IMG/VR virus record: IMGVR_UViG_3300009285_003636
Location: 1 to 48,436 of that record
From: a virus
Length of the DNA: 48,436 nt
Direction: 5' to 3' (one strand)
Shown: in pieces, positions 5,801-31,670 of the stretch
How positions within the stretch are numbered: position 1 is the stretch's first letter
Layout: the number at the start of each line of letters is the position of its first letter
The notes under the pieces: model-generated
Databases searched by the model: none
What the model was told of the DNA's origin: nothing
The model's input: the letters and a program-made list of their open reading frames with translations, nothing else
Translations under genes and position numbers: made by a program

Positions 5801-5942
5801 GATACAAGAGCATGTCGTTCGTTGAAGTCGGGGTAGTCGTTATATCAGCATCGAATCTAATAGCGCCGAGATCGCTTCCGCGTCTCTGACGTATATTCCA
5901 TCCGCCGATAGAACCTGCCCGACCAGAATCAAATGTAGGCAT
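2886..5942 (-). CDS. Giant tandem-repeat beta protein of the virion (fibre/decoration-like)
   Basis: 1018 residues. Residues 1-75 (GRAGSIGGWNIRQRRGSDLGAIRFDAD..) resemble an anchoring head. Residues about 100-880 are degenerate tandem repeats built from short units such as TGNVIDI, ATGxAIxID, GAxxRTxPLxEI and GGTLIDIDV. These alternate small, hydrophobic and Asp residues, as in beta-solenoid or beta-helical fibres. A final ~110-residue beta domain (ITLPTGTLLGG..SAGDVFDLVIDNSAG..TVTIA) ends the chain and resembles C-terminal domains of head or tail decoration proteins. It follows the capsid gene directly. Long shadow frames on the opposite strand come from the repeat composition. A fibre is more likely than an enzyme; no catalytic motif is visible. 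Confidence 0.7.
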   Translation of the reverse strand: MPTFDSGRAGSIGGWNIRQRRGSDLGAIRFDADITTTPTSTNDMLLYRRSSGLRFWDGTTEYNLLTSVSGSVGDLNGVYENGSTITVDEGAIVLNDGQATANTLTATKTGTGSGHIFSLKFEDAANTAARAIYIDMDDGIAAEGIEIDSGGTARTGSDLIFTDDSTGAHSIIDINSSGSGASIGLDFTGTFSGSPGGSAISITLGNGNNLNTTGFLFTGGTGVRTAPVIDIDDAGTGSAAMIDIDLSGAYTGDIFQFATSGIATGNVFFVNLDTAVAMTALHIEGSGARTQPMIELQSDSTGTLSMVEVILTGAISGHVLEVSMDTTSTGDVFNVDMNAAVGGRFLFLDAGAGARTANLIAVTYDSTGNLDLCEIADNNTGSGQLFDINVGGAGSGNVIDITYGAVADTGDAIAIDLGATATGAQAIVLTSGVMTRTTNLVEIAENGAASGNTIDVGIGAVTYTGNVLDINLGATATGGQAVVIASGAMNRTVALLEIGDAGTSSGILLDINITGAVTGNIVDIVTSAAATGNVINIDLDAGLAATAVRVDSGAGLRTQPVVEFIMEGTGTGAGGTLIDIDVNESGATSNPLIDIDFATGVYAGNVFEVGLASACTGNVIHIDMNAGVAATAIHLDAGAVTRTQPLMETTFDGAGTTIGGTLWDINVTNTGAAASPLFDIDVTAVYTGNIIDIVFGNASASTGDALHIDMGTNLAGNAIQIDAAGTRSEPLINIVNTGADGGTNDHVILISQTGVLNSDVINITYSSGASDGNALFIGMGTNVAGSAIQMTTAGTGVSGEGCALDITHTGALVAGADLVNITSNGNHSSTSNLFSIEATGASTAGRWALYINSTDSGMEGLKVDAGAVVFDETLLVTGVATFTAKPVLPILTELNTTIDTRSTAAAINATATATAAEVATGRITSTSAAATTITLPTGTLLGGELSASAGDVFDLVIDNSAGASTVTIAVAVNGVLSTAAVDTGGSFGDLTVASGVTGVAVYRIMFTSATAYAFTRVA

Positions 5943-14936: not shown

Positions 14937-15325
14937 AGACTAAGAGTAACACATGTTACCTATACTGGGCGATGAGGCGTGCGTGTCCTCCGCTGGCCTT
15001 GCACGCGAGTTCCCGACAGTGTCGCACAATCCTGCGTACCACAAACCCCGCCATAGGGTATATGTACTTATATAATTTTTTTTTAATACTATAGGGTTCT
15101 AGGAATAATAGAAAGAAAAATAATTTTGAATGTGGTGCTCTTACTGAACTTGTGGTAAGCTGGGGAAATATAGGTGATTGTATGGCTTAGAATAAGGGTT
15201 AGATATTTACAGATTATTAGATTGTGTTATAGTTTATAGTAATATCTTGCTTTTTTATATATCTAGGGTATATGATATTATATGTGTAGGATATTGTTAG
15301 TTATTAGTATAGTTAATAAAAAAAT
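14937..15325. other. Divergent AT-rich intergenic control region
   Basis: A 389-base noncoding stretch between the leftward VRR-NUC gene and the rightward RHH gene. The left third is GC-balanced and holds a small inverted repeat GTAACA-CA-TGTTAC (14946-14959). From about 15059 to 15325 it is strongly AT-rich, with T-runs and TATA-like strings. A weak -10-like TATAGT at 15308-15313 sits 12 bases before the RHH start codon, but no -35 matches. It could combine promoters, operators for the RHH protein and an easily melted replication-start segment. No reading frame of note was seen. Confidence 0.5.
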
Positions 15326-15703: not shown

Positions 15704-15709
15704 GGACCA

Positions 15710-15729
15710 TTTTCAAAAAAAATTGAAAA
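15710..15729 (+). terminator. AT-rich hairpin after the RHH gene
   Basis: TTTTCAA (15710-15716), a six-A loop and TTGAAAA (15723-15729) form a perfect 7-bp stem seven bases after the stop codon. The stem lacks GC and no T-run follows, so termination would be weak. Confidence 0.3.
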
Positions 15730-15941
15730 CTTAGGGTGGGGGTGCCTGCGCTCGGGGATCCTAAGGCTATAAGATTTTATATTGGAGGTTCGTTTTTTCG
15801 GGCTGGGGGTTCAGGTAGATAATGGCTATATTACAACATCTTTATAAATAAATATCAATGGACACACGCACACAAGCACGCATGCGCAGGGGTACACACG
15901 CACGCCACAGCTACACAGAGCCATATATTATGATATTAGGG
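15730..15941. other. Noncoding stretch with CA/CG-rich alternating tract
   Basis: Part of the 457-base gap between the RHH gene and the first small membrane protein. It contains G-rich patches and, at about 15859-15911, an alternating purine-pyrimidine tract rich in ACACGCAC units that could adopt unusual DNA structure. No reading frame with support was seen. Confidence 0.4.
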
Positions 15942-16026
15942 TTCGCATTTTATACAAATAGCGAAGTTATCCACAGTTTGCGTGTGTTATAATGTTTTTT
16001 GCGTATTGACAATATAATAACTTCGC
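15942..16026. promoter_or_regulatory. DnaA box with flanking inverted repeats: candidate origin/operator
   Basis: GCGAAGTTAT (15961-15970) and its perfect reverse complement ATAACTTCGC (16017-16026) flank a 46-base AT-rich centre. A third half-site TTCGC (15942-15946) lies to the left, and TTCGCATT occurs as a direct repeat at both ends. A perfect DnaA box TTATCCACA lies at 15967-15975. The centre contains TATAAT at 15988-15993. A TTGACA (16005-16010 region) has TAGACT 17 bases further on, so at least one sigma70-like promoter may start here. Replication origin and operator are both open readings. Confidence 0.5.
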
Positions 16027-16160
16027 ATTAGACTTGTTATTGGGCGTGTGTTGTACTTTACATCACACAAGACGAAAACTTATACCACTAAAATATGTTT
16101 TTGTCTAACGCCTACGTTCGCGGTCTCGTATTCTCCTAACAGCTAATATCTAAAATAAAA

Positions 16161-16460: not shown

Positions 16461-16547
16461 TTGGCTTTTGATAGAGTGTCTGACATGGGGTTGGACACTT
16501 ATACGGGGAGCTAAGTTAGTCCCCAGCATTATAAGTTTAAGAAAACA
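16461..16547 (+). ncRNA. Two-hairpin RNA element, copy A
   Basis: It starts with the conserved box TTGGCTTTTGAT. Hairpin 1 pairs AGTGTC with GACACT around a variable loop. Hairpin 2 opens with GGGGAGCTAA and closes with TTAGTCCCC. The box CATTATAAGTTTAAGAAAAC then leads almost directly to the ATG at 16550. Copies B and C share boxes and architecture but have different stem sequences. This could be a cis-regulatory leader, an RNase processing site or a folded spacer between cistrons. Confidence 0.65.
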
Positions 16548-16549
16548 CT

Positions 16550-17179
16550 ATGGGAATATGTATCAGTCACCGGCTTGCACAAGAGGTCAAATATATAAAA
16601 CCGACTCTTGACCACGCCGAAGGTGTGGCCCGTGCAATCAAGAAGGAGCAAGCTGACAAGGTCGGGATCTCTTTTAAGATCAGAAGGCCAGATGATCTAT
16701 GTCTAATGATAGATATAGGAGAATGCGAGACACTAGCATTTCAGTTTAAGCCGTTGTCGGAGTATAAGGCGGAAGCAGAGCCGAAGCCGGAGGGTCACGG
16801 CTGGTCTTACACATGGGAGACACTAAAAGACTTTAAGCACTTTGACGATGACCATCAGGGCGAGCATTACGAGAAATGGCCGGATCAGAAGCTAGTCTGG
16901 TCGTCCGCTTTCTGTAAGACGCAGTTTATAGGATCGCTTGTACAGCATAAATGGGTGGCGGATCTAATTAGGGTCGTGGCCTCGATGTGTGTACTCGCAA
17001 GCGTAAACGATGAGGGTGATTACTACCATAATGGCCGGATAGAGGACGCCGGAGACGCTATCGGAGAGTGTGGAGTGTTGATAAATAGTATTGGCGGACA
17101 GCTCGCCGGTCTAGGATATGGCCAAGATCAGATCATCAAGGGCGGAGAGACAAGGGTGAAGGGTCGCAGGAAGGTATAA
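16550..17179 (+). CDS. Conserved-looking unknown early protein
   Basis: 209 residues, not recognised with certainty. It starts MGICISHRLAQEVKYIKPTLDHAEGVA and has a compact pattern (VGISFKIRRPDDLCLMIDIGECETLAFQFK), Trp-rich strands (HGWSYTWETLKDFKHFDDD) and a helical C-terminal half (FIGSLVQHKWVADLIRVVASMCVLASVNDEG). It looks like a soluble globular protein. No active-site motif is obvious. It is framed by RNA-element copies A (leader) and B (after the stop). Confidence 0.7.
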   Translation: MGICISHRLAQEVKYIKPTLDHAEGVARAIKKEQADKVGISFKIRRPDDLCLMIDIGECETLAFQFKPLSEYKAEAEPKPEGHGWSYTWETLKDFKHFDDDHQGEHYEKWPDQKLVWSSAFCKTQFIGSLVQHKWVADLIRVVASMCVLASVNDEGDYYHNGRIEDAGDAIGECGVLINSIGGQLAGLGYGQDQIIKGGETRVKGRRKV

Positions 17180-17186
17180 AGATAGG

Positions 17187-17277
17187 TTGGCTCTTGATTA
17201 TGCGCTCACCGCAAGAGCATGAGCGCATAAATGAGGGGCTAAGGATTAGCTTCTCAACATTATTAGTTTAGGAAAAC
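17187..17277 (+). ncRNA. Two-hairpin RNA element, copy B
   Basis: The box TTGGCTCTTGAT is followed by hairpin 1, TATGCGCTCA (17199-17208) with TGAGCGCATA (17220-17229), ten perfect pairs. Hairpin 2 is GAGGGGCTAA (17233-17242) with TTAGCTTCTC (17246-17255), ten pairs with two G-U. The box AACATTATTAGTTTAGGAAAAC follows. The next ATG is at 17282 with GGAG just before it, so the element is the leader of the acidic 55-residue gene. Confidence 0.7.
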
Positions 17278-17449: not shown

Positions 17450-17669
17450 GTGGAACGAAGTCCGGAGTGGGACTAAAATCACTTTAGAGAAAGATATTAC
17501 GCTTAAGAGTTTCAACGATGAAACTAGAGACTTGAAAGCCGGCAAGTATTTTATCACCGGCTTCTGGGTTGATATGTGTGGGTTGGGTAAAAAGAAAGAC
17601 AGCTTGAATGATGTGTGTATCAAGTCCACGGAGTTACTAGCGTTTAGAGAAATATCAAATGCTCTATAA
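17433..17669 (+). CDS. Small unknown early protein
   Basis: 78 residues (MKKKYKWNEVRSGTKITLEKD..). It reads like a small beta-barrel: TKITLEKDITLKSF, DLKAGKYFITGFWVD, DVCIKSTELLAFREI. No family recognised. It overlaps its neighbours on both sides (17 and 11 bases), placing it in one translation unit with the sliding clamp. Confidence 0.55.
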   Translation: MKKKYKWNEVRSGTKITLEKDITLKSFNDETRDLKAGKYFITGFWVDMCGLGKKKDSLNDVCIKSTELLAFREISNAL

Positions 17670-18246
17670 TAGACACAACCTAGCCGTGGCCGGTGTCGCT
17701 TCCGACAGCAGTATCAAGCCGGTGCTGTCCGGTGTGATGTTCACGAAAGACAAGACGGTAGCAACCGACAGTTACCGGCTCGTTGAAATAAGCGTGCATA
17801 AAGACGCTAGGGTGGATGAGTTTCCGAAAGTGCAGGGCATAAGTGCTATGCAAGGGATTAAGCCGTTCATTGTCTGGGCTAAGGGACTGAAAGAGATTAA
17901 GATACCGAAAAGCTCTCTACCCATGCTTGAGAATGTGGCTATCAAGCACGTTGACGATCAAGGTATTGAGTTTATCACTACTGATCTTGAAACGGTTGAT
18001 ATCAAGCGAGTAAAACGTATCAACGAGACGTTTCCGGACTATGAAAAGATATTTCCTGTCGGTGAGCCGTTAGCGGAAGTGGAAGTCAATGCGGAGTATT
18101 TAGCGGAAGTAGTGAAGATACTCGGTAAGCTCGACAGCATGAGCAGAGTGAAGATAAAGCTCTACGGAACACTGAAGCCTTTGGTGTTTGAAGCCGGTAA
18201 CGATAAACAGAGAGGACGCGGGCTTCTTATGCCTATGAATAAGTGA
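17659..18246 (+). CDS. Shortened DnaN-like sliding clamp
   Basis: 195 residues, against about 366 for cellular DnaN. SGVMFTKDKTVATDSYRLVEIS corresponds to the middle domain of bacterial beta clamps (xxGMLF..RTVATDGHRLAV). FPDYEKIFP is the conserved link before domain 3. The end (VKIKLYGTLKPLVFEAG..GRGLLMPMN) matches the DnaN C-terminal strand with its MPM motif. So domain 2 and the second half of domain 3 are visible; domain 1 is absent. It would tether a polymerase or other clamp-binding proteins. No polymerase gene is in the window. How a ring forms from such a short chain is open. Confidence 0.8.
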   Translation: MLYNRHNLAVAGVASDSSIKPVLSGVMFTKDKTVATDSYRLVEISVHKDARVDEFPKVQGISAMQGIKPFIVWAKGLKEIKIPKSSLPMLENVAIKHVDDQGIEFITTDLETVDIKRVKRINETFPDYEKIFPVGEPLAEVEVNAEYLAEVVKILGKLDSMSRVKIKLYGTLKPLVFEAGNDKQRGRGLLMPMNK

Positions 18247-18250
18247 TAGA

Positions 18251-18318
18251 ATGGCTCTTGGTAGTGGTGTCAAAGACTAAACGAAGTGTTGACATCACTA
18301 ACGAGGAGCTATCCTCGG
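18251..18318 (+). ncRNA. Two-hairpin RNA element, copy C
   Basis: The box ATGGCTCTTGGT is followed by hairpin 1, AGTGGTGTCA (18263-18272) with TGACATCACT (18290-18299), ten pairs with one G-U. Hairpin 2 is CGAGGA (18302-18307), loop GCTA, TCCTCG (18312-18317). GGACATTA follows and matches the CATTA box of copies A and B. The downstream A-rich box is not kept. Instead the copy leads into a further ~400 noncoding bases. Confidence 0.65.
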
Positions 18319-18720
18319 ACATTACGAGAATGACTTGTGTGAGGGTCGCTCTACGCTACCCCTTAATTGCACAAGTGCTGGCGTAGTGCCGAACAGCTTT
18401 TCGGATACCGGTGTGTCTTTTAGATACACATTGCGGGCGGAGATGCTATCTCTTATACGCTAGAGAAACTAAAAGGCGTTGGCAACTTGGAATTAGACAG
18501 GTAATGCGAAGATAACATTTAGTTATGTTCTGTATGTCCAGTGAACGGGAAACCGGTTAAATAGCTCCCTGCTGTTATAGGATCATGCTACGAATAACCT
18601 AGTCGGTTGCAATACCGAGTTCGAGAGAACGCAGACACTAAAGCGCTCTCTCGAGCGAACCTTGCGCCTTGACATATCTCATAGTGAACCGGCGATTAAA
18701 GTAGCGTGCGTGTTTTCGCT
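18319..18720 (+). ncRNA. Candidate large structured noncoding RNA
   Basis: About 400 bases with no convincing reading frame in a genome that is otherwise packed. Stems seen: ACTTGTG 18333-18339 with CACAAGT 18370-18376; GGGT/ACCC at 18343/18358 whose loop CTACGC (18351-18356) can pair with GCGTAG (18381-18386), a pseudoknot; CCGAA/TTCGG 18389-18404; an 8-pair stem 18411-18429; GAGAT/ATCTC 18440-18452; AACAT/ATGTT 18514-18529; a GAAA-loop hairpin near 18546; TCGGT/ACCGA 18603-18618; TCGAGAG/CTCTCGA 18621-18654. It does not match tRNA, tmRNA, RNase P or group I/II intron cores by eye. A GOLLD/ROOL-like phage RNA or a new class is possible. Confidence 0.55.
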
Positions 18721-18972
18721 ATGAGTCGTCAGGTCGCAAGGGAGTTAATCAATAACCAATACATGCAAATACCAGAAATAAATTGTACTCGGTGCGGAGA
18801 AAAACAATGGTCAGTAGCAGATCAAAAGTATGTTGAACTGTTTGATCTCTGTTGGAATTGTGATCGCCGGCGCTGGCATGAAGGGATTATTACTCTTCAT
18901 ACGTTTGAGACTAGAGAAAAACAAGCATCAGATGGGGCGCTCATGTTCGAAAGCCGGAGAGAAAACACATGA
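18721..18972 (+). CDS. Zinc-ribbon protein
   Basis: 83 residues from the ATG at 18721. An upstream in-frame GTG at 18706 adds five residues without support. INCTRCGEKQWSVADQKYVELFDLCWNCDRRRW contains CxxC...CxxC, one zinc ribbon. The C-terminal half is charged. The stop overlaps the recombinase start (ATGA), so the two are translated together. Likely a DNA or RNA-binding accessory. Confidence 0.65.
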   Translation: MSRQVARELINNQYMQIPEINCTRCGEKQWSVADQKYVELFDLCWNCDRRRWHEGIITLHTFETREKQASDGALMFESRRENT

Positions 18973-19520
18973 TCACACCGAAACGCAATATCAAATTTCT
19001 TGAGGAAGCGGAGATCAGACAGATCATCAATGCTATTCCAGATGACAGTCGGGGCCGGCGTGATCGGGCGCTTCTTGAAGTGTTATTCAGCACTGGTTTG
19101 CGTATCTCTGAAGCGTTGACGCTCTCGGATGCTCCGTTCGTAAAGGAGACGAAAGGTACGTTAGAATTAAGCATCACTGGCAAGGCAGGTTGGCAGAGAG
19201 TTATCTTTATCTCTCCAATAGCACTCAAGGTGGTTAAAAACTATTTGAAGTTTCGAACTGATAGTAACTTGCATCTCTTCCCTATCACGGCCCGTAGAGC
19301 GCAAATGATGATCAAGGAGAGAGCTAAGAAGGCCGGTATTGAAAAGCGTGTTACTCCGCACATGCTCCGACATTCGTTTGCGACTGATCTATTGCGTAAG
19401 GGTGTGGATATACGATTAGTGCAACAATTTTTAGGACACAGAAGTCTTAATAATACTATGATTTATACTCATGTGACTAACAACCAATTAAAAGAAGTGC
19501 ATAAGAAATTATATAAATGA
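18969..19520 (+). CDS. Tyrosine recombinase, catalytic domain only
   Basis: 183 residues with the complete catalytic set: R45 (STGLRISEAL), K72 (ITGKAG), H131-x-x-R134 (HMLRHSFATDL), H157 (FLGHRSL) and nucleophile Y166 (MIYTHV). The usual ~80-110-residue N-terminal core-binding domain is missing; the protein starts directly at the helix before the first Arg. XerC/D-type phrasing is clear. Such short integrase-like enzymes may integrate, resolve multimers or need a partner such as the coupled zinc-ribbon protein. No att core or direct repeat was identified nearby. Confidence 0.85.
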   Translation: MITPKRNIKFLEEAEIRQIINAIPDDSRGRRDRALLEVLFSTGLRISEALTLSDAPFVKETKGTLELSITGKAGWQRVIFISPIALKVVKNYLKFRTDSNLHLFPITARRAQMMIKERAKKAGIEKRVTPHMLRHSFATDLLRKGVDIRLVQQFLGHRSLNNTMIYTHVTNNQLKEVHKKLYK

Positions 19521-20105: not shown

Positions 20106-20288
20106 ATGAACAAGAAAAAAACAATAGAAGTATTGGAGATAATAGCAAAAGATGCACAAGACGATGCTAGAAATTTCGATGGTCAATCGTTCACTGGTAA
20201 AACAGTCGGAACGTATTTCGGAAATCACGGAGCATCAATCGCTTCACTTGCAGAAATTGTCAAAGATATTCTAGAAGAAAAGTTATGA
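20106..20288 (+). CDS. Small unknown early protein
   Basis: 60 residues, helical and charged: MNKKKTIEVLEIIAKDAQDDARNFDGQSFTGKTVGTYFGNHGASIASLAEIVKDIL. Its gene starts two bases after the previous stop and overlaps the SNF2 start (ATGA). Unknown function; possibly an accessory of the helicase. Confidence 0.55.
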   Translation: MNKKKTIEVLEIIAKDAQDDARNFDGQSFTGKTVGTYFGNHGASIASLAEIVKDILEEKL

Positions 20289-21910
20289 AAGCCATTAAAC
20301 GCGGAGACAAAATAGAGATTAGCTTCCCTTATGATGAACGTCTGATCGCTCTCGCCCGCTCTTTTATCGGTAGAGAATATTCGCCGAGTACAAAAACGTG
20401 GTTTATACCTCTTGTCGGTGCCGGTTACGCTGTTGAGAAACTTCGCCGGTGGCAGTTTCAGATTGATCCGGCTGTGGATAAAGCTGTGGAGGATGAGGAT
20501 AAGTTGACGGTAGAGGCCGAGGCACTTGCGGTCATGGATGATACGGAGTTCGAGACTCCGCTTCCTCTCTTTCCATTTCAAAAAGTAGGGTCGGCGTTTT
20601 TATACAAGATCGGGTCCGGACTCTTGGGAGATGAGATGGGCCTCGGTAAAACCGTGCAAGCACTTGCAGTAGCAGAGAAAGTGAAGGCAGAAAAGATTTT
20701 AATCTTTTGTCCGGCTTCGGTTAAATGGCAATGGGCGCAAGAGATCGAGAAGTTTCTCGGAAAACAGGATACGAGAGTTGTTGAAGGAGGTAAGTTAAGG
20801 CGCTGGGATATATGGAAAGAGGATCACCGTTTCTATATTGCGAATTATGAGTTGTTATTAAGGGATTTTGATTTAATGAATGTGCGAGAATGGGATTTAA
20901 TAGTAGTTGATGAGGCTACCAAGATCAGTAATCCGCGAGCGAGACAAAGTAAGTTAGTTAAAAAGCTCCGAGGCAAGCGCCGGATAGCTATGACCGGTAC
21001 GCCGGTATCGAACAGAGCGCAAGAAGTATGGAATGTAGTGGATTTTTGCGTACCGGGCGCTATGGGTAAGTATTGGGATTTTCAGAATCGTTATTGTTTG
21101 AAGAATCAGTGGGGAGGAATATATGGTTACACGAACATGGACGAGCTTCAGCAAAAACTTAAGCGTTATATGATCCGAAGGAAGAAGATTGATGTGCTTC
21201 CGGAGTTACCGGAGAAGATCAGTACTGACATTCCTTTCGAACTCTCTGATAAGGAAATGTCTCTCTATAAGAACATCAAAAAAGAGATTCTCTTCGAGAT
21301 CAACAAAACCGACATCAACAAGATCGAACGACCTATGACGATCCAGTTTACTTTAGTAAAAATGCTCCGGCTTAGACAACTTACGGATTCGATGGAGCTT
21401 TTGGGTGAGTCGCAAAAATCATCAAAACTTGATGTATTGAGAGAGTTACTTAGCGAGGCCCTCACCAACGGTAAAAAAGCGATTGTATTTACGCAATTTG
21501 CAGAAATGGCTGATATTTTAGAGCGGAAACTGGCGGAATGGAGGCCGTTGAAGATTAGCGGTAAGATTCAGGAAGAATATAAAGATGTGGTGGCTCGATT
21601 TAATGAAGTTGAAGAACAGAAGGTTCTTATTATGACCAGTGCCGGACAGTTTGGCTTGAATATCCAGCGCGCCTCTGTCATTTTCCACTACGATCAGGAG
21701 TGGAGTTTAGCGAAGATGCAACAGCGAGAAGGGAGAGCTCACCGGATTGGTCAGAAAGATACGGTGATGATCTATAACCTCTTGGCGAAAGGAACGATTG
21801 ATTATTACGTTAAAAAAGTTCTTCATGGCAAGGCGGAGTTATCAAATCAAGTGCTGGGAGATATCCCGATGAACATGGAGGATATTAAACAAATACTAAA
21901 CTATGAATAA
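20285..21910 (+). CDS. SNF2-family helicase/translocase with HARP-like N-terminus
   Basis: 541 residues. Residues 1-60 (IEISFPYDERLIALARSFIGREYSPSTKTWFIPL) follow the HARP-domain pattern of SMARCAL1-type annealing helicases. The SF2 core has GDEMGLGKT (115-123, Walker A), VVDEATKI (a DEAT box in place of DEAH), MTGTPVSN (motif III), and in the second lobe KAIVFTQFAEM, TSAGQFGLNIQRAS and QREGRAHRIGQ (motifs V-VI). It probably remodels forks or anneals single strands during phage replication. It closes an operon of coupled small genes. Length is that of a minimal SNF2 protein. Confidence 0.9.
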   Translation: MKAIKRGDKIEISFPYDERLIALARSFIGREYSPSTKTWFIPLVGAGYAVEKLRRWQFQIDPAVDKAVEDEDKLTVEAEALAVMDDTEFETPLPLFPFQKVGSAFLYKIGSGLLGDEMGLGKTVQALAVAEKVKAEKILIFCPASVKWQWAQEIEKFLGKQDTRVVEGGKLRRWDIWKEDHRFYIANYELLLRDFDLMNVREWDLIVVDEATKISNPRARQSKLVKKLRGKRRIAMTGTPVSNRAQEVWNVVDFCVPGAMGKYWDFQNRYCLKNQWGGIYGYTNMDELQQKLKRYMIRRKKIDVLPELPEKISTDIPFELSDKEMSLYKNIKKEILFEINKTDINKIERPMTIQFTLVKMLRLRQLTDSMELLGESQKSSKLDVLRELLSEALTNGKKAIVFTQFAEMADILERKLAEWRPLKISGKIQEEYKDVVARFNEVEEQKVLIMTSAGQFGLNIQRASVIFHYDQEWSLAKMQQREGRAHRIGQKDTVMIYNLLAKGTIDYYVKKVLHGKAELSNQVLGDIPMNMEDIKQILNYE

Positions 21911-23922: not shown

Positions 23923-25595
23923 AAGTTTAAAAGTTCTGGATTTACTGTTAATCCCCCATCTTGCCTACGGATTAGACCGATGGCGTTAAGATGAGAGACA
24001 GCATTATTAAATCCTCCGCTTGTAGAAGAATAGTGAGTCTCTTCTCCGATAGTTTCTTTGGTGTGTACCTCACCTTGTCTTTCCCACAACCACTTATAAA
24101 TCTCAATTTCACACTTACCAAGCTTCCGTTCCCAGAAACGAGGCTCCGGTGAGAATTCTTCTCCTTCGATGATATGTTCTGTATCTAATTGGCCCATCTC
24201 GATTAGCTCTCTATTCTTTCTGATGAGTCCAAGAGCATTGAGGCGTGCAATAGCATTGTTAAATCCACCAGACTTTGGAGAGTAACCGGTAACAGCTCCG
24301 AGCTGTACTTTAGTAAAGCTCTTTCCACTATTCTCATGTAGAAAACTGTAGATTTTCTTAGCACAAATACCAACTTCAGATCTATTTTCTTCACCGTCCA
24401 TTTTTGGTTCTTTTTGGACTGGTAGGGGTCTGATCGGTTCACTTTTAACGATATTTGAATTGCCCGGTAGTTTTCCTATGTAGCTTCCTGCCGGTTTATT
24501 ACTAGGCTTATTTTTCATTTTTTCATCAAGGTCTTTTATAACCTTAAGAAGATCAAGGCGAGTGTGTGCATGAATATATCCAACGAACTCTCTCCATTGT
24601 TCCACCCATTGATGTGTAGCTTTACGTTCAGTAGCAATAGCAATCAAATGTGGTTCGAGCTCTTTTTGTAAATTACCTACGGGAGCACATTTGTGCTGAC
24701 GAAGTTTTCTAATTTCAGCTTTCATTTCTGCTACCGTCTGTGCCTCTTTCTGTGCTTCAGCCGGAAGATCCGCTAACTTGCCTAGAAGTTTTTTTACTCT
24801 CTCTGTCGGAGGAACAACTTTATATTCAGCTCCTCCTTTTGGTATTGAGGTACTAACCTCGCCCACTTTAATCTTAATTACTTCGTTCGAGATAGCCGGA
24901 CCGAAAGCAAAGAATTCCCCCGGCTCAAGAGAGCGCAAGGCCAGAATTTTCTCCTTATCAGTAATACCAAGCTCATCAGCCGCGCGCTTACGGTCAATGT
25001 CAAGGGAAGCACGACCAATCAGCTTGTTATTACACTCCGCGGCTGCATCTTTATGAAGTTTAGAGATACGCTGAGTAGCAAGGATCAAGGAGAACTCACG
25101 TTTGCGACCGAGAGAAGCCATGCCAACCACAGCCGAAAGAGACTCTGCCTCACCCTTCTCAGGAGCGAAGGTGTGTGCTTCATCCAGAATAACCAGCGTG
25201 GGGTGATAGAGGCTTTTGGGGACATTAACCATAGACTCTAAAAATAGTCTTACAAAATGCTTGCGTTCTTGTGGGTGGAGTTCGTAGAGGTCTATGATTG
25301 TAGAAACTTTGAGCTCAAGTAATCGTGTCGCAAGAAGCGCTGCACTGCGAGGCTCTGCTGGGGTATCCCCTCCCTTACCGGCAAGCACAAAATCAAATTT
25401 CTCGCGCAAAGTTGAGAACTCTCCCTCCGGGTCAAGAATGATAATTTGGATCTTGCCGTAAGCGCGCTCGACAATACGGCGTATGAGCCATGACTTACCG
25501 CCACCAGAATTAGCTTGTACCAGAAGTTTACCCGAAATAAGTTTAGGGAGATCAATACTGACAGTGCTATTCAACCTGATGGCTTCGTTTTTCAT
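23919..25595 (-). CDS. HerA-like ATPase with two winged-helix repeats
   Basis: 558 residues. LLVQANSGGGKSWLIRRIVE holds Walker A (29-35), IIILDPEGEF is the HerA-type strand after it, and PTLVILDEAHTFAPE holds Walker B (about 134-140). SLILATQRISKLHKDAAAECNNKLIGR is a typical sensor/arginine region of DUF87/HerA-FtsK ATPases. A basic helical linker follows. Two related ~65-residue winged-helix units (AKKIYSFLHENSGKSFTKVQ.. and CEIEIYKWLWERQGEVHTKE..) both contain SGGFNNAxxxLNAxGLI, a clear internal duplication. HerA proteins pump DNA for end resection or packaging. Here it likely works with the phage nucleases. Confidence 0.8.
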   Translation of the reverse strand: MKNEAIRLNSTVSIDLPKLISGKLLVQANSGGGKSWLIRRIVERAYGKIQIIILDPEGEFSTLREKFDFVLAGKGGDTPAEPRSAALLATRLLELKVSTIIDLYELHPQERKHFVRLFLESMVNVPKSLYHPTLVILDEAHTFAPEKGEAESLSAVVGMASLGRKREFSLILATQRISKLHKDAAAECNNKLIGRASLDIDRKRAADELGITDKEKILALRSLEPGEFFAFGPAISNEVIKIKVGEVSTSIPKGGAEYKVVPPTERVKKLLGKLADLPAEAQKEAQTVAEMKAEIRKLRQHKCAPVGNLQKELEPHLIAIATERKATHQWVEQWREFVGYIHAHTRLDLLKVIKDLDEKMKNKPSNKPAGSYIGKLPGNSNIVKSEPIRPLPVQKEPKMDGEENRSEVGICAKKIYSFLHENSGKSFTKVQLGAVTGYSPKSGGFNNAIARLNALGLIRKNRELIEMGQLDTEHIIEGEEFSPEPRFWERKLGKCEIEIYKWLWERQGEVHTKETIGEETHYSSTSGGFNNAVSHLNAIGLIRRQDGGLTVNPELLNL

Positions 25596-29539: not shown

Positions 29540-29957
29540 GAAAAAATATGATATCGCTAAAGGAGATGAGCCATTAAGACTCTTTCTTTACAGCGTACAA
29601 GAAGGTCCGATGTTTATTCAGTTTCCTTTCAGAGTCATGGCGGTATTGGCTTTTAGTGAAGGAGACGCTTATAACATTGTCCGGGCCGGTTACCCTCAAG
29701 GGAAACTTCTTTCTATTTCACAGAAAGGCATACTTAAAATTCAAGAGCTTCTTGATCAACTTAACTTCACTGTACCTACAAGCGGCGGTATGGAAGTTAA
29801 GATGAATACAGAACCGGTCCCTGAAAAAAAAGAGGCACCGATAATAGGCAAAGAACATTTTGTTTATAACATGTTTTATATAGCCGATAACTTTGTCACA
29901 GATCTTCGTGATCGGGCGACGCTTAAGAAAATTATCGGTAAAATTAAATTGACATGA
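29523..29957 (+). CDS. Unknown middle-operon protein
   Basis: 144 residues from the ATG at 29523. A longer in-frame start at 29355 would overlap the zinc-ribbon gene and has unlikely composition. MNDAIKKKYDIAKGDEPLRLFLYSVQEGPMFIQFPFRVMAVLAFSEGDAYNIVRAGYPQG is beta/alpha mixed. Then a helix (GILKIQELLDQLN), an acidic linker and a final helical segment. No family recognised. The stop overlaps the methionine aminopeptidase start (ATGA). Confidence 0.6.
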   Translation: MNDAIKKKYDIAKGDEPLRLFLYSVQEGPMFIQFPFRVMAVLAFSEGDAYNIVRAGYPQGKLLSISQKGILKIQELLDQLNFTVPTSGGMEVKMNTEPVPEKKEAPIIGKEHFVYNMFYIADNFVTDLRDRATLKKIIGKIKLT

Positions 29958-30751
29958 GTTTATTTTCATTTTTATCTTCTGGAAGTGAACTTGAAAACAT
30001 GCGTAAAGCCGCCGATATTGTTTCTAAAGTACTTCTTGAACTTGAAAAAATGACCGCTCCCGGAGTCAGTCTTGACATGCTCGACGAACTGGCCGAACGC
30101 CTAATCCGAGAAGCCGGTGCCATTCCTTTTAATAAAGGCTATCATCCTAAGTGGGCCGAGATCCCGTATCCGGCTACGGTCTGTTTTGCTCTCAATGAGG
30201 AGATTTGTCACGCTCCGCCCCATAACAGGACCTTAAAGGATGGAGACATCATTACTTACGACTTAGGAATAAAATATAAAGGTGTCTGCGGTGATGCCGC
30301 CCTGACTGTGCCTGTCGGAGAACATGTCTCAAATAGACGCCTTAGAGCCTTGAGATATGCTAAGGAAGGACTTTATCGCGGTATTGAGGTAGTGAGAGCT
30401 GGAGCGCCTGTTTCAGCCATAGGCAGAGCTATTGAGGACTATGTCTCCAAAATGGGATTTAGAGTCATCAAGGACTTTGGGGGTCATGCTATAGGCAAGG
30501 AAATGCACATGAAACCCTTTATTCCTCACTATTACGATAAGGCAAACGACAATATTTTGCTCGAAGAAGGTCAAATTATCTGTGTTGAGCCGATGATCAC
30601 TCCGGGCAAGGCCATTGTAGGCATGATGGGTGATAAATGGACTGCGTTTTGTATTGATGATCAGGTTTGCGCTATGTTCGAACATATGATTTTAGTGAAG
30701 AAAGACGGATTTGAAATATTAACAAGTCATATAGCTGAGTCCCACGGCTGA
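29954..30751 (+). CDS. map: Methionine aminopeptidase
   Basis: 265 residues, the normal length of type I enzymes. It removes the initiator Met from new proteins. All metal and catalytic residues of the pita-bread fold are in place: His in EEICHAPPH, Asp in DIITYDLGI, Asp in GVCGDAAL, His in GGHAIGKEMH, Glu in IICVEPMI and Glu in AMFEHMILV. So it should be active. Phages rarely carry this enzyme. It may support fast processing of virion proteins or supplement a reduced host. It is translationally coupled to the preceding gene (ATGA). Confidence 0.93.
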   Translation: MSLFSFLSSGSELENMRKAADIVSKVLLELEKMTAPGVSLDMLDELAERLIREAGAIPFNKGYHPKWAEIPYPATVCFALNEEICHAPPHNRTLKDGDIITYDLGIKYKGVCGDAALTVPVGEHVSNRRLRALRYAKEGLYRGIEVVRAGAPVSAIGRAIEDYVSKMGFRVIKDFGGHAIGKEMHMKPFIPHYYDKANDNILLEEGQIICVEPMITPGKAIVGMMGDKWTAFCIDDQVCAMFEHMILVKKDGFEILTSHIAESHG

Positions 30752-30785: not shown

Positions 30786-31670
30786 ATGAAAAAATTATTA
30801 TCAATTGCACTTTTAGCCATGTTTGCGCTTCCGCTCAGTGCAGGAGCAACAGTAGTCGCCTGTGGTGCAGAGTTTGTTTATGAACAAAGAAGCACTGGAT
30901 CCCATGAGGGCAACTTCGGAGACTACTACGACGAGAAAGTTTCTATTGACTTCGACTTCCCTCTAGCTAGAGAAATAACAATCTCTACCAACGATCCGTA
31001 TGTGCTGGTAAAAGTGGAACTTGATGTGGATGGGGACGGACACGCCGGATACTTTGACTACATCGATGAGTTCCCCGGAGAGTTCAACCCTAGCCCGGGT
31101 GACAGAATCGACAACGCAAGGGTCACGGTCAAAAAAGACTGTCCCGATGTTTGCCCGAATATCGATGGCAATCAATACGAAGTGCCTGAGGGATATATCT
31201 TAGAGGAAGGGCAGTGTGTGCTACCTCCGCCTCCCGTAGATGTTTGCCCGAATCTTGAAGGCAATCAGGAAATTGTACCAGAGGGCTACATTCTTGAAGA
31301 AGGAGAATGCGTATTGCCCCCGCCTCCGCCAGTAGATTTGTGTCCAGAGGAAGGAATACAAACAGAACTTCCTTGCGCAGAGCCACCGGCTCCAGTAGAC
31401 GTATGCCCGAACGACGAGGGAATACAGACAGAGGTTCCGTGTCCTTCGGACACGCCCCCTCCACCTCCATCTGCTCTTGCACCTATAGAAGTTCATAGAA
31501 CACCAAGTGGAGGCATTGTGTGGTGTACAGCAACAAGAACGGAGTGGTGCAGACAACCAGAAGGATTTGGTGGTAGTGTAAGCTGGCTAGAACAGCAGAT
31601 TTTAAACTTGATGCAACAGTTGATTGATCAACTAAAAGTAGAGATAGAGTTGTTGGCAATGTCTCTTTAG
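30786..31670 (+). CDS. Secreted Cys/Pro-repeat protein of CPR style
   Basis: 294 residues. The signal peptide is clear (MKKLLSIALLAMFALPLSAG with ATVVA). Residues about 25-115 form an acidic beta domain (ELDVDGDGHAGYFDYIDEF). Then come four repeats starting DVCPN/DLCPE: two with EGNQxxVPEGYILEEGxCVLPPPP and two shorter ones, separated by Pro runs. The C-terminus has a Cys pair (VWCTATRTEWC) and a Leu/Gln helix (WLEQQILNLMQQLIDQLKVEIELL). I know this CPN..VPEGY style from Parcubacteria secreted proteins. Likely exported, disulphide-stabilised, at or outside the envelope. A role in host surface change or lysis is a guess. Confidence 0.7.
   Translation: MKKLLSIALLAMFALPLSAGATVVACGAEFVYEQRSTGSHEGNFGDYYDEKVSIDFDFPLAREITISTNDPYVLVKVELDVDGDGHAGYFDYIDEFPGEFNPSPGDRIDNARVTVKKDCPDVCPNIDGNQYEVPEGYILEEGQCVLPPPPVDVCPNLEGNQEIVPEGYILEEGECVLPPPPPVDLCPEEGIQTELPCAEPPAPVDVCPNDEGIQTEVPCPSDTPPPPPSALAPIEVHRTPSGGIVWCTATRTEWCRQPEGFGGSVSWLEQQILNLMQQLIDQLKVEIELLAMSL

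Follow-up and report, generated by a model that had tools for sequence, protein, structure and literature searches.

A structured RNA family outside Rfam, with a repeated hairpin module, in the replication operon of uncultivated phages

What is encoded by a hairpin-rich stretch of some 450 nt that lies directly 3' of a sliding-clamp-like gene and bears no gene of its own? The question was raised by one locus of an uncultivated phage, and it was followed in the whole 48,436-nt stretch of DNA analysed (the window) and in related phages. Three genes of the window mark its surroundings:

17659 to 18246, plus strand: sliding-clamp-like gene directly upstream, a syntenic landmark (PHROG DNA polymerase processivity factor; 53 and 48% identity to homologues)
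18969 to 19520, plus strand: tyrosine recombinase, downstream (Pfam PF00589)
20285 to 21910, plus strand: SNF2-type helicase (Pfam), with homologues in genomes G001, G002 and G004, downstream in 4/4 genomes

The stop codon of the clamp gene ends at 18246 and the gap from 18247 to 18705 was gene-free, as a preliminary description of the region had claimed. Stops were present in all six frames (6-14 in each plus-strand frame), the longest open stretch was 53 codons, and no frame was open throughout all the homologues described below. The RNA stretch itself extends from 18252 to 18725, about 475 nt without protein-coding content, its true 3' end being nearer 18725 than the 18720 first given. That this is the longest gap of the genome is not secure, because the noncoding gap at 15704-16160 has about the same length. 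The latter and a further gap at 14937-15325 are partly AT-rich and could contain a replication origin.

The plus strand folded with -169.6 kcal/mol compared with a mean of -134.3 for shuffled sequence (z -5.86), none of 100 shuffles being equally stable, so that the region surpassed the shuffled controls proposed for it; the fold of the minus strand was weaker (z -2.48). When its 5' hairpin, P1, was left out, the plus-strand z-score was -5.20. The minimum free energy structure of the window RNA without P1 lacked the P2 domain described below, and single-sequence folds of this RNA are therefore unreliable. No Rfam family matched anywhere in the window at gathering thresholds, and a permissive search (E<=10) of positions 18000-19000 returned irrelevant weak matches only. 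Neither ARAGORN nor Rfam detected a tRNA or tmRNA in the whole window, nor did Rfam detect an RNase P RNA; the epsC family (EAR) was unmatched in both gathering and permissive searches, and permissive searches of the window, L001, L008, L095 and L096 gave no match to ribozyme families or to group I or group II introns. The judgement, made by eye, that tRNA, tmRNA, RNase P and intron cores were absent was borne out by these searches.

The window RNA belongs to a previously unrecorded structured RNA family outside Rfam. Homologues occupied the corresponding position in at least three other uncultivated phages (L001, L008 and L095), which with the window make up the four firm members, and a weak candidate was found in a fourth (L096). 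L001 was found through its SNF2 helicase (68% identity), L008 by a DNA pattern built on the window and L001, and L095, L096 and L098 by means of a clamp alignment. The hairpin-rich noncoding stretch adjoined the clamp gene, or lay one small ORF beyond it, in all four firm members, and the length of the RNA was approximately 375-475 nt in the family. Independent folding of L001 gave a matching 5' architecture (z -6.47); the folds of L008 (z -2.82) and L095 (z -2.36) were less striking, yet better than those of nearly all shuffles.

A covariance model of the P2 domain (R1), built on the window, L001, L008 and L095, found exactly one copy in each of these four records with default filters and, with the same filters, no further copies elsewhere among the searched relatives. 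R1 was not found across 83 loci of distant helicase relatives, nor in the terminase relatives L131, L134, L135 and L136, two of which, L131 and L134, terminate close to the expected site or short of it. In L096 a weak R1 match was located exactly 3' of the clamp gene (12.4 bits and E 0.0035 when 601 bases were searched with the filters switched off), and the noncoding gap directly 3' of that gene (L096:4595-4950) had a strong fold (z -6.55). L096 is a possible distant fifth member, retained as a candidate only because the ordinary whole-record search did not report its R1 match. L098 had a gene directly 3' of the clamp and no convincing R1 match there (best E 0.09). Blast searches of 50,697 phage records gave no matches for either the RNA or the clamp. 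IMG/VR, scanned with a wider motif, yielded 18 matches, of which only L001, L008 and the L095 contig were real; eight of the other 15 were inspected and were apparently unrelated sequence, and the remaining seven share their span with several of those. When 84,980 species genomes were scanned for the core-motif pattern, five matches emerged; P1 was not seen in the flanks of any of them, and they were taken as chance.

The features recognised in the body of the RNA were as follows:

18316 to 18391, plus strand: P2 domain, with double-sided changes in 13 of 24 pairs and one R1 copy per genome
18343 to 18362, plus strand: cap hairpin of P2, GGGTCGC-loop-GCTACCCC (alignment A5)
18485 to 18502, plus strand: hairpin ACTTG-GAATTAGA-CAGGT, its loop conserved in four homologues
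18546 to 18555, plus strand: GAAA-capped hairpin seen in the sequence, window-specific, no homologue counterpart seen
18678 to 18725, plus strand: 3' terminal domain, with double-sided changes in 7 of 9 pairs and folds of four homologues

Standard pairs occupied 94.8% of the cells of P2, none of 500 shuffles reached its covariation, and the pairing signal was destroyed when partners were slid by 1-3 columns. Its outer helix has 10 covarying bp and a bulged A (18319 in the window) at the same place in 4/4 sequences, followed by a conserved internal loop of AGAATG (18327-18332) opposite GCTGG (18377-18381), an inner helix of 9-10 bp and the cap hairpin, which has a conserved asymmetric internal loop TC/TAC (CC/UAC in L095). 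Unpaired motifs kept in sequence between helices that vary are usual in folded RNAs with a binding partner, which is how we would read this pattern. The pseudoknot earlier suggested between CTACGC and GCGTAG proved specific to the window, with eight complementary bases there compared with four in each homologue, and most of its GCGTAG strand is taken up by the 3' side of the outer P2 helix, which covaries.

Downstream of P2, the loop of the 18485-18502 hairpin has the consensus GAAAUAGA, of which the window carries the version GAATTAGA; covariation in its 5-bp stem was weak. The GAAA-capped hairpin had been described correctly. The 3' terminal domain consists of a 9-bp helix, CTCATAGTG/CGCTATGAG, around a shorter helix in which GTAG is mostly conserved. 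A long-range closing helix that appeared in single-sequence folds was inconsistent among the homologues by eye and was discarded.

The 5' end of the region had been described as the third copy of a two-hairpin element, and this was correct, the P1 covariance model (R2) placing three copies in the window:

16462 to 16514, plus strand: P1 copy A (R2 44.6 bits, copy in model), 2 nt past the stop of a 48-aa ORF and leader of ORF 16550
17188 to 17242, plus strand: P1 copy B (R2 60.9 bits, copy in model), 8 nt past the stop of ORF 16550-17179 and leader of ORF 17282
18252 to 18312, plus strand: P1 copy C (R2 52.5 bits, copy in model), beginning 5 nt past the clamp stop codon

Copy C forms a 24-bp helix, GGCTCTTGG...ACGAGGAGC, interrupted by one bulged A and by a conserved G.G mismatch. 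P1 was also found in G001 (25045, 26153 and 27109, the first of these left out of the R2 model), on the minus strand of G002 (2647, 2031 and 1026) and in L001 (3560), making three copies or junctions per genome in each of three larger genomes. Two contigs outside the model also carried it, L134 (E 6e-8) and L131 (E 0.009), in the corresponding region 5' of the terminase; the whole-record R2 search reports the L131 copy and omits that of L134. The helix measured 18-25 bp in 12 copies, the mismatch and the bulge being kept in nearly all of them, with a conserved base (GGCUCUUG/GAGGAGC) and an upper half free to vary. Over nine copies, 8 of 13 pairs showed double-sided changes, which no shuffle out of 500 reproduced. 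P1 is a separate module, usually located immediately 3' of a stop codon in the early operon.

Covariation in P2, in the 3' helix and in P1 supports a real RNA structure. The counts for P2 and the 3' helix come from four sequences, with helix assignments chosen by us and structures derived from the same sequences, and they therefore overstate the significance somewhat; alignments A10 and A12 consist of hand-cut helix segments with artificial flanks. Even so, the agreement of three separate domains would be hard to explain without RNA structure.

Most P1 copies begin 1-8 nt past a stop codon, the stop overlaps P1 in L131 and L134, and the G001 copy at 25045 is exceptional in lying about 31 nt from one. 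The 3' arm of P1 could alternatively pair just downstream in copies A and B and in the copy at the L095 clamp, according to single-sequence folds only, a switch-like arrangement that spans 16462-16545 and 17188-17265 in the window. Such placement and pairing would suit an element of translation or mRNA stability, in which P1 couples or uncouples the next gene at the stop codon and the large RNA protects or insulates the mRNA, as would the rare use of Shine-Dalgarno sites (6 of 44 genes). However, the spacing between P1 and the following start codon was highly variable, and this role, which we consider unlikely, leaves unexplained why the internal-loop motifs are conserved and why the P2 and 3' domains are so complex and present only once.

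An HNH_3 endonuclease ORF (L095:5019-5519, E 2.6e-10) was located between P1 and the RNA body of L095. P1 and P2 therefore need not adjoin, and this insertion suggests that P1 and the body are separable. A 19-base sequence, ATACATCTATCAAAGTATG, was present at L095:4925-4943 and again at 5812-5830, as two hairpin ends flanking the HNH gene. Homing endonucleases are frequent residents of introns, so that the ORF could point to a self-splicing or self-cleaving ribozyme or to the remnant of an intron, and structured RNA together with an HNH ORF in one copy does resemble group I and II introns that carry HNH genes. In contrast to these, the element is intergenic and not within a gene, the other three of the four copies have no HNH ORF, and the permissive searches of the window and its relatives gave no intron or ribozyme match; this origin appears very unlikely.

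The record of L095, G002, has a 99-nt terminal overlap and is most likely a complete circular genome. It keeps the RNA and the helicase, and no homologue of the window tyrosine recombinase was detected in it by search, for which reason the RNA is seemingly independent of that enzyme. The recombinase gene neighbours the RNA in three of the four genomes, as would be expected if the stretch acted as DNA, either as the recombination site of that enzyme or as a replication origin. Against this, G002 has the RNA in the absence of a detectable homologue of this recombinase, the fold is strand-biased (z -5.86 vs -2.48) and the pairs vary through G-U, as RNA would. The recombination-site version is largely refuted by these data, and a DNA-level element of either kind is the most improbable of the explanations considered.

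A consensus scan for the promoter of the operon that bears the RNA gave one best site:

16006 to 16034, plus strand: best sigma-70-like promoter, TTGACA-17-TAGACT (consensus scan only; site count near chance)

No convincing promoter or intrinsic terminator of the RNA itself was found in promoter and terminator scans, and the 3' helix had no plus-strand site with a GC stem and U tract, so release of the RNA would require processing. P1 copies A and B form hairpins in gene leaders 3' of the likely promoter, and the large RNA (375-475 nt) lies about 2.2 kb downstream of that promoter. The put RNA of phage HK022 suppresses termination through the zinc-binding domain of the RNA polymerase beta' subunit. 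The put RNAs, about 70 nt with two stem-loops, are located downstream of early promoters (PMC9378689), and like them and EAR (epsC) the present elements are structured, cis-placed and in or near the start of an operon, with two-hairpin P1 leaders. The main rival to an RNA acting in trans is antitermination in cis, in which the P1 modules and the large RNA would load on RNA polymerase and block termination or polarity across the operon of about 6 kb; the fixed place within one co-directional operon and the repeated two-hairpin modules near its promoter end are consistent with it. The family differs from EAR in lacking an epsC match in Rfam. Against antitermination, the body exceeds put 5-6 times in size and is far from the likely promoter, P1 is present three times where one antiterminator would not require that, the element is split by the HNH gene in L095, and the scan revealed no clear terminators to be read through. 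We regard this role as possible, if doubtful.

The reading that we prefer, with a probability of about 0.42, is that of a new large structured RNA carried in the early replication-operon transcript, released at P1 by RNase III-like processing and acting in trans. The conserved position, the covarying structure and the repeated P1 are established here; processing, release and action in trans we infer. The RNA, of about 375-475 nt, would be borne within the early transcript in tailed phages that form a small clade, and the host RNase III would cleave at the two-turn P1 hairpins between genes, as in the T7 early transcript. A cut at copy C, with subsequent trimming of the 3' end as far as the covarying terminal helix, would free an RNA running from P2 to the 3' helix, which may act during early infection as a folded RNA, alone or bound to protein, with the conserved internal loops AGAAUG/GCUGG and UC/UAC and the GAAAUAGA loop as its putative working surface. 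The KH protein earlier proposed as a partner was not substantiated, since Pfam recognised no KH domain among the 40 ORFs scanned.

P1 is taken as the processing site because of its length and intergenic placement and because neither a promoter nor a terminator is clearly present near the RNA; its predicted helices have the near-continuous run of about 20 or more bp, between cistrons, by which RNase III sites are judged. In phage T7 the early genes are separated by RNase III sites, and we know of no link between these and a large conserved RNA. P1 resembles them in being intergenic, about two helical turns long and placed between early-operon genes, and differs in the strong conservation of its base, its cleavage being putative; the T7 site R1.1 has been studied as an RNase III substrate (PMC4858673). 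The single copy per genome and the synteny count for the preferred reading. Against it, the 3' end has no P1 module, the conservation of the P1 base exceeds the known needs of RNase III, the fixed position upstream of the helicase would also fit a role in cis, and the firm members number only four. That the single-copy RNA, excised at P1, is an RNA machine of a new class, which contacts a factor of the host, be it ribosome, RNA polymerase or nuclease, through its conserved internal-loop surface or assembles with itself during takeover, seems to us rather doubtful. If true, a machine cut from the early operon at repeated P1 hairpins would be a new class of phage RNA.

By kind, the nearest known RNAs are GOLLD and ROOL, comparable as a broad class only, which are likewise large, complex, structured and phage-encoded. 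They are often located near tRNA genes; in contrast, the window has no tRNA, and the RNA is in a replication-operon setting with clamp, recombinase and helicase as neighbours. GOLLD and ROOL occur in phages and prophages, form homo-oligomers and have functions that are still unknown, one ROOL having 659 nt and GOLLD often more than 800 nt (PMC12286853). The window RNA is shorter than these, has no Rfam match, and has a 5' hairpin common to other intergenic sites. The suggestion that it could be a new large structured phage RNA holds in that it is real, large, structured and absent from Rfam; membership of GOLLD or ROOL is not supported. Large structured phage RNAs are few. The present family adds one outside Rfam, in which covariation supports the domains, the core is defined and the repeated module is separable, and the phages that carry it make little use of Shine-Dalgarno sites. 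Its possible roles are already narrowed by the most likely complete circular genome in which that recombinase was not detectable and by the copy split by the HNH gene.

Some minor observations were made in the same records. In G002 the SNF2 helicase gene is in two ORFs (L125:9249-11386), split by an insert of about 0.5 kb with a small ORF that has a weak zinc-finger match and is HNH-like by eye; the insert had no intron-family match. The segment L095:1088-1226 gave a score with a plant microRNA model that stays under the curated cut-off (E 2.8e-6) and is probably a simple long inverted repeat. Shine-Dalgarno-like sites were confined to 6 of the 44 window genes examined, and A-rich leaders were present before many starts. 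A gene of the metallopeptidase M24 family (methionine aminopeptidase-like), unexpected for a phage, is located at 29954-30751 of the window, and a tandem 89-base repeat occupies 31146-31327, inside a protein-coding gene that gave a weak EGF-like match.
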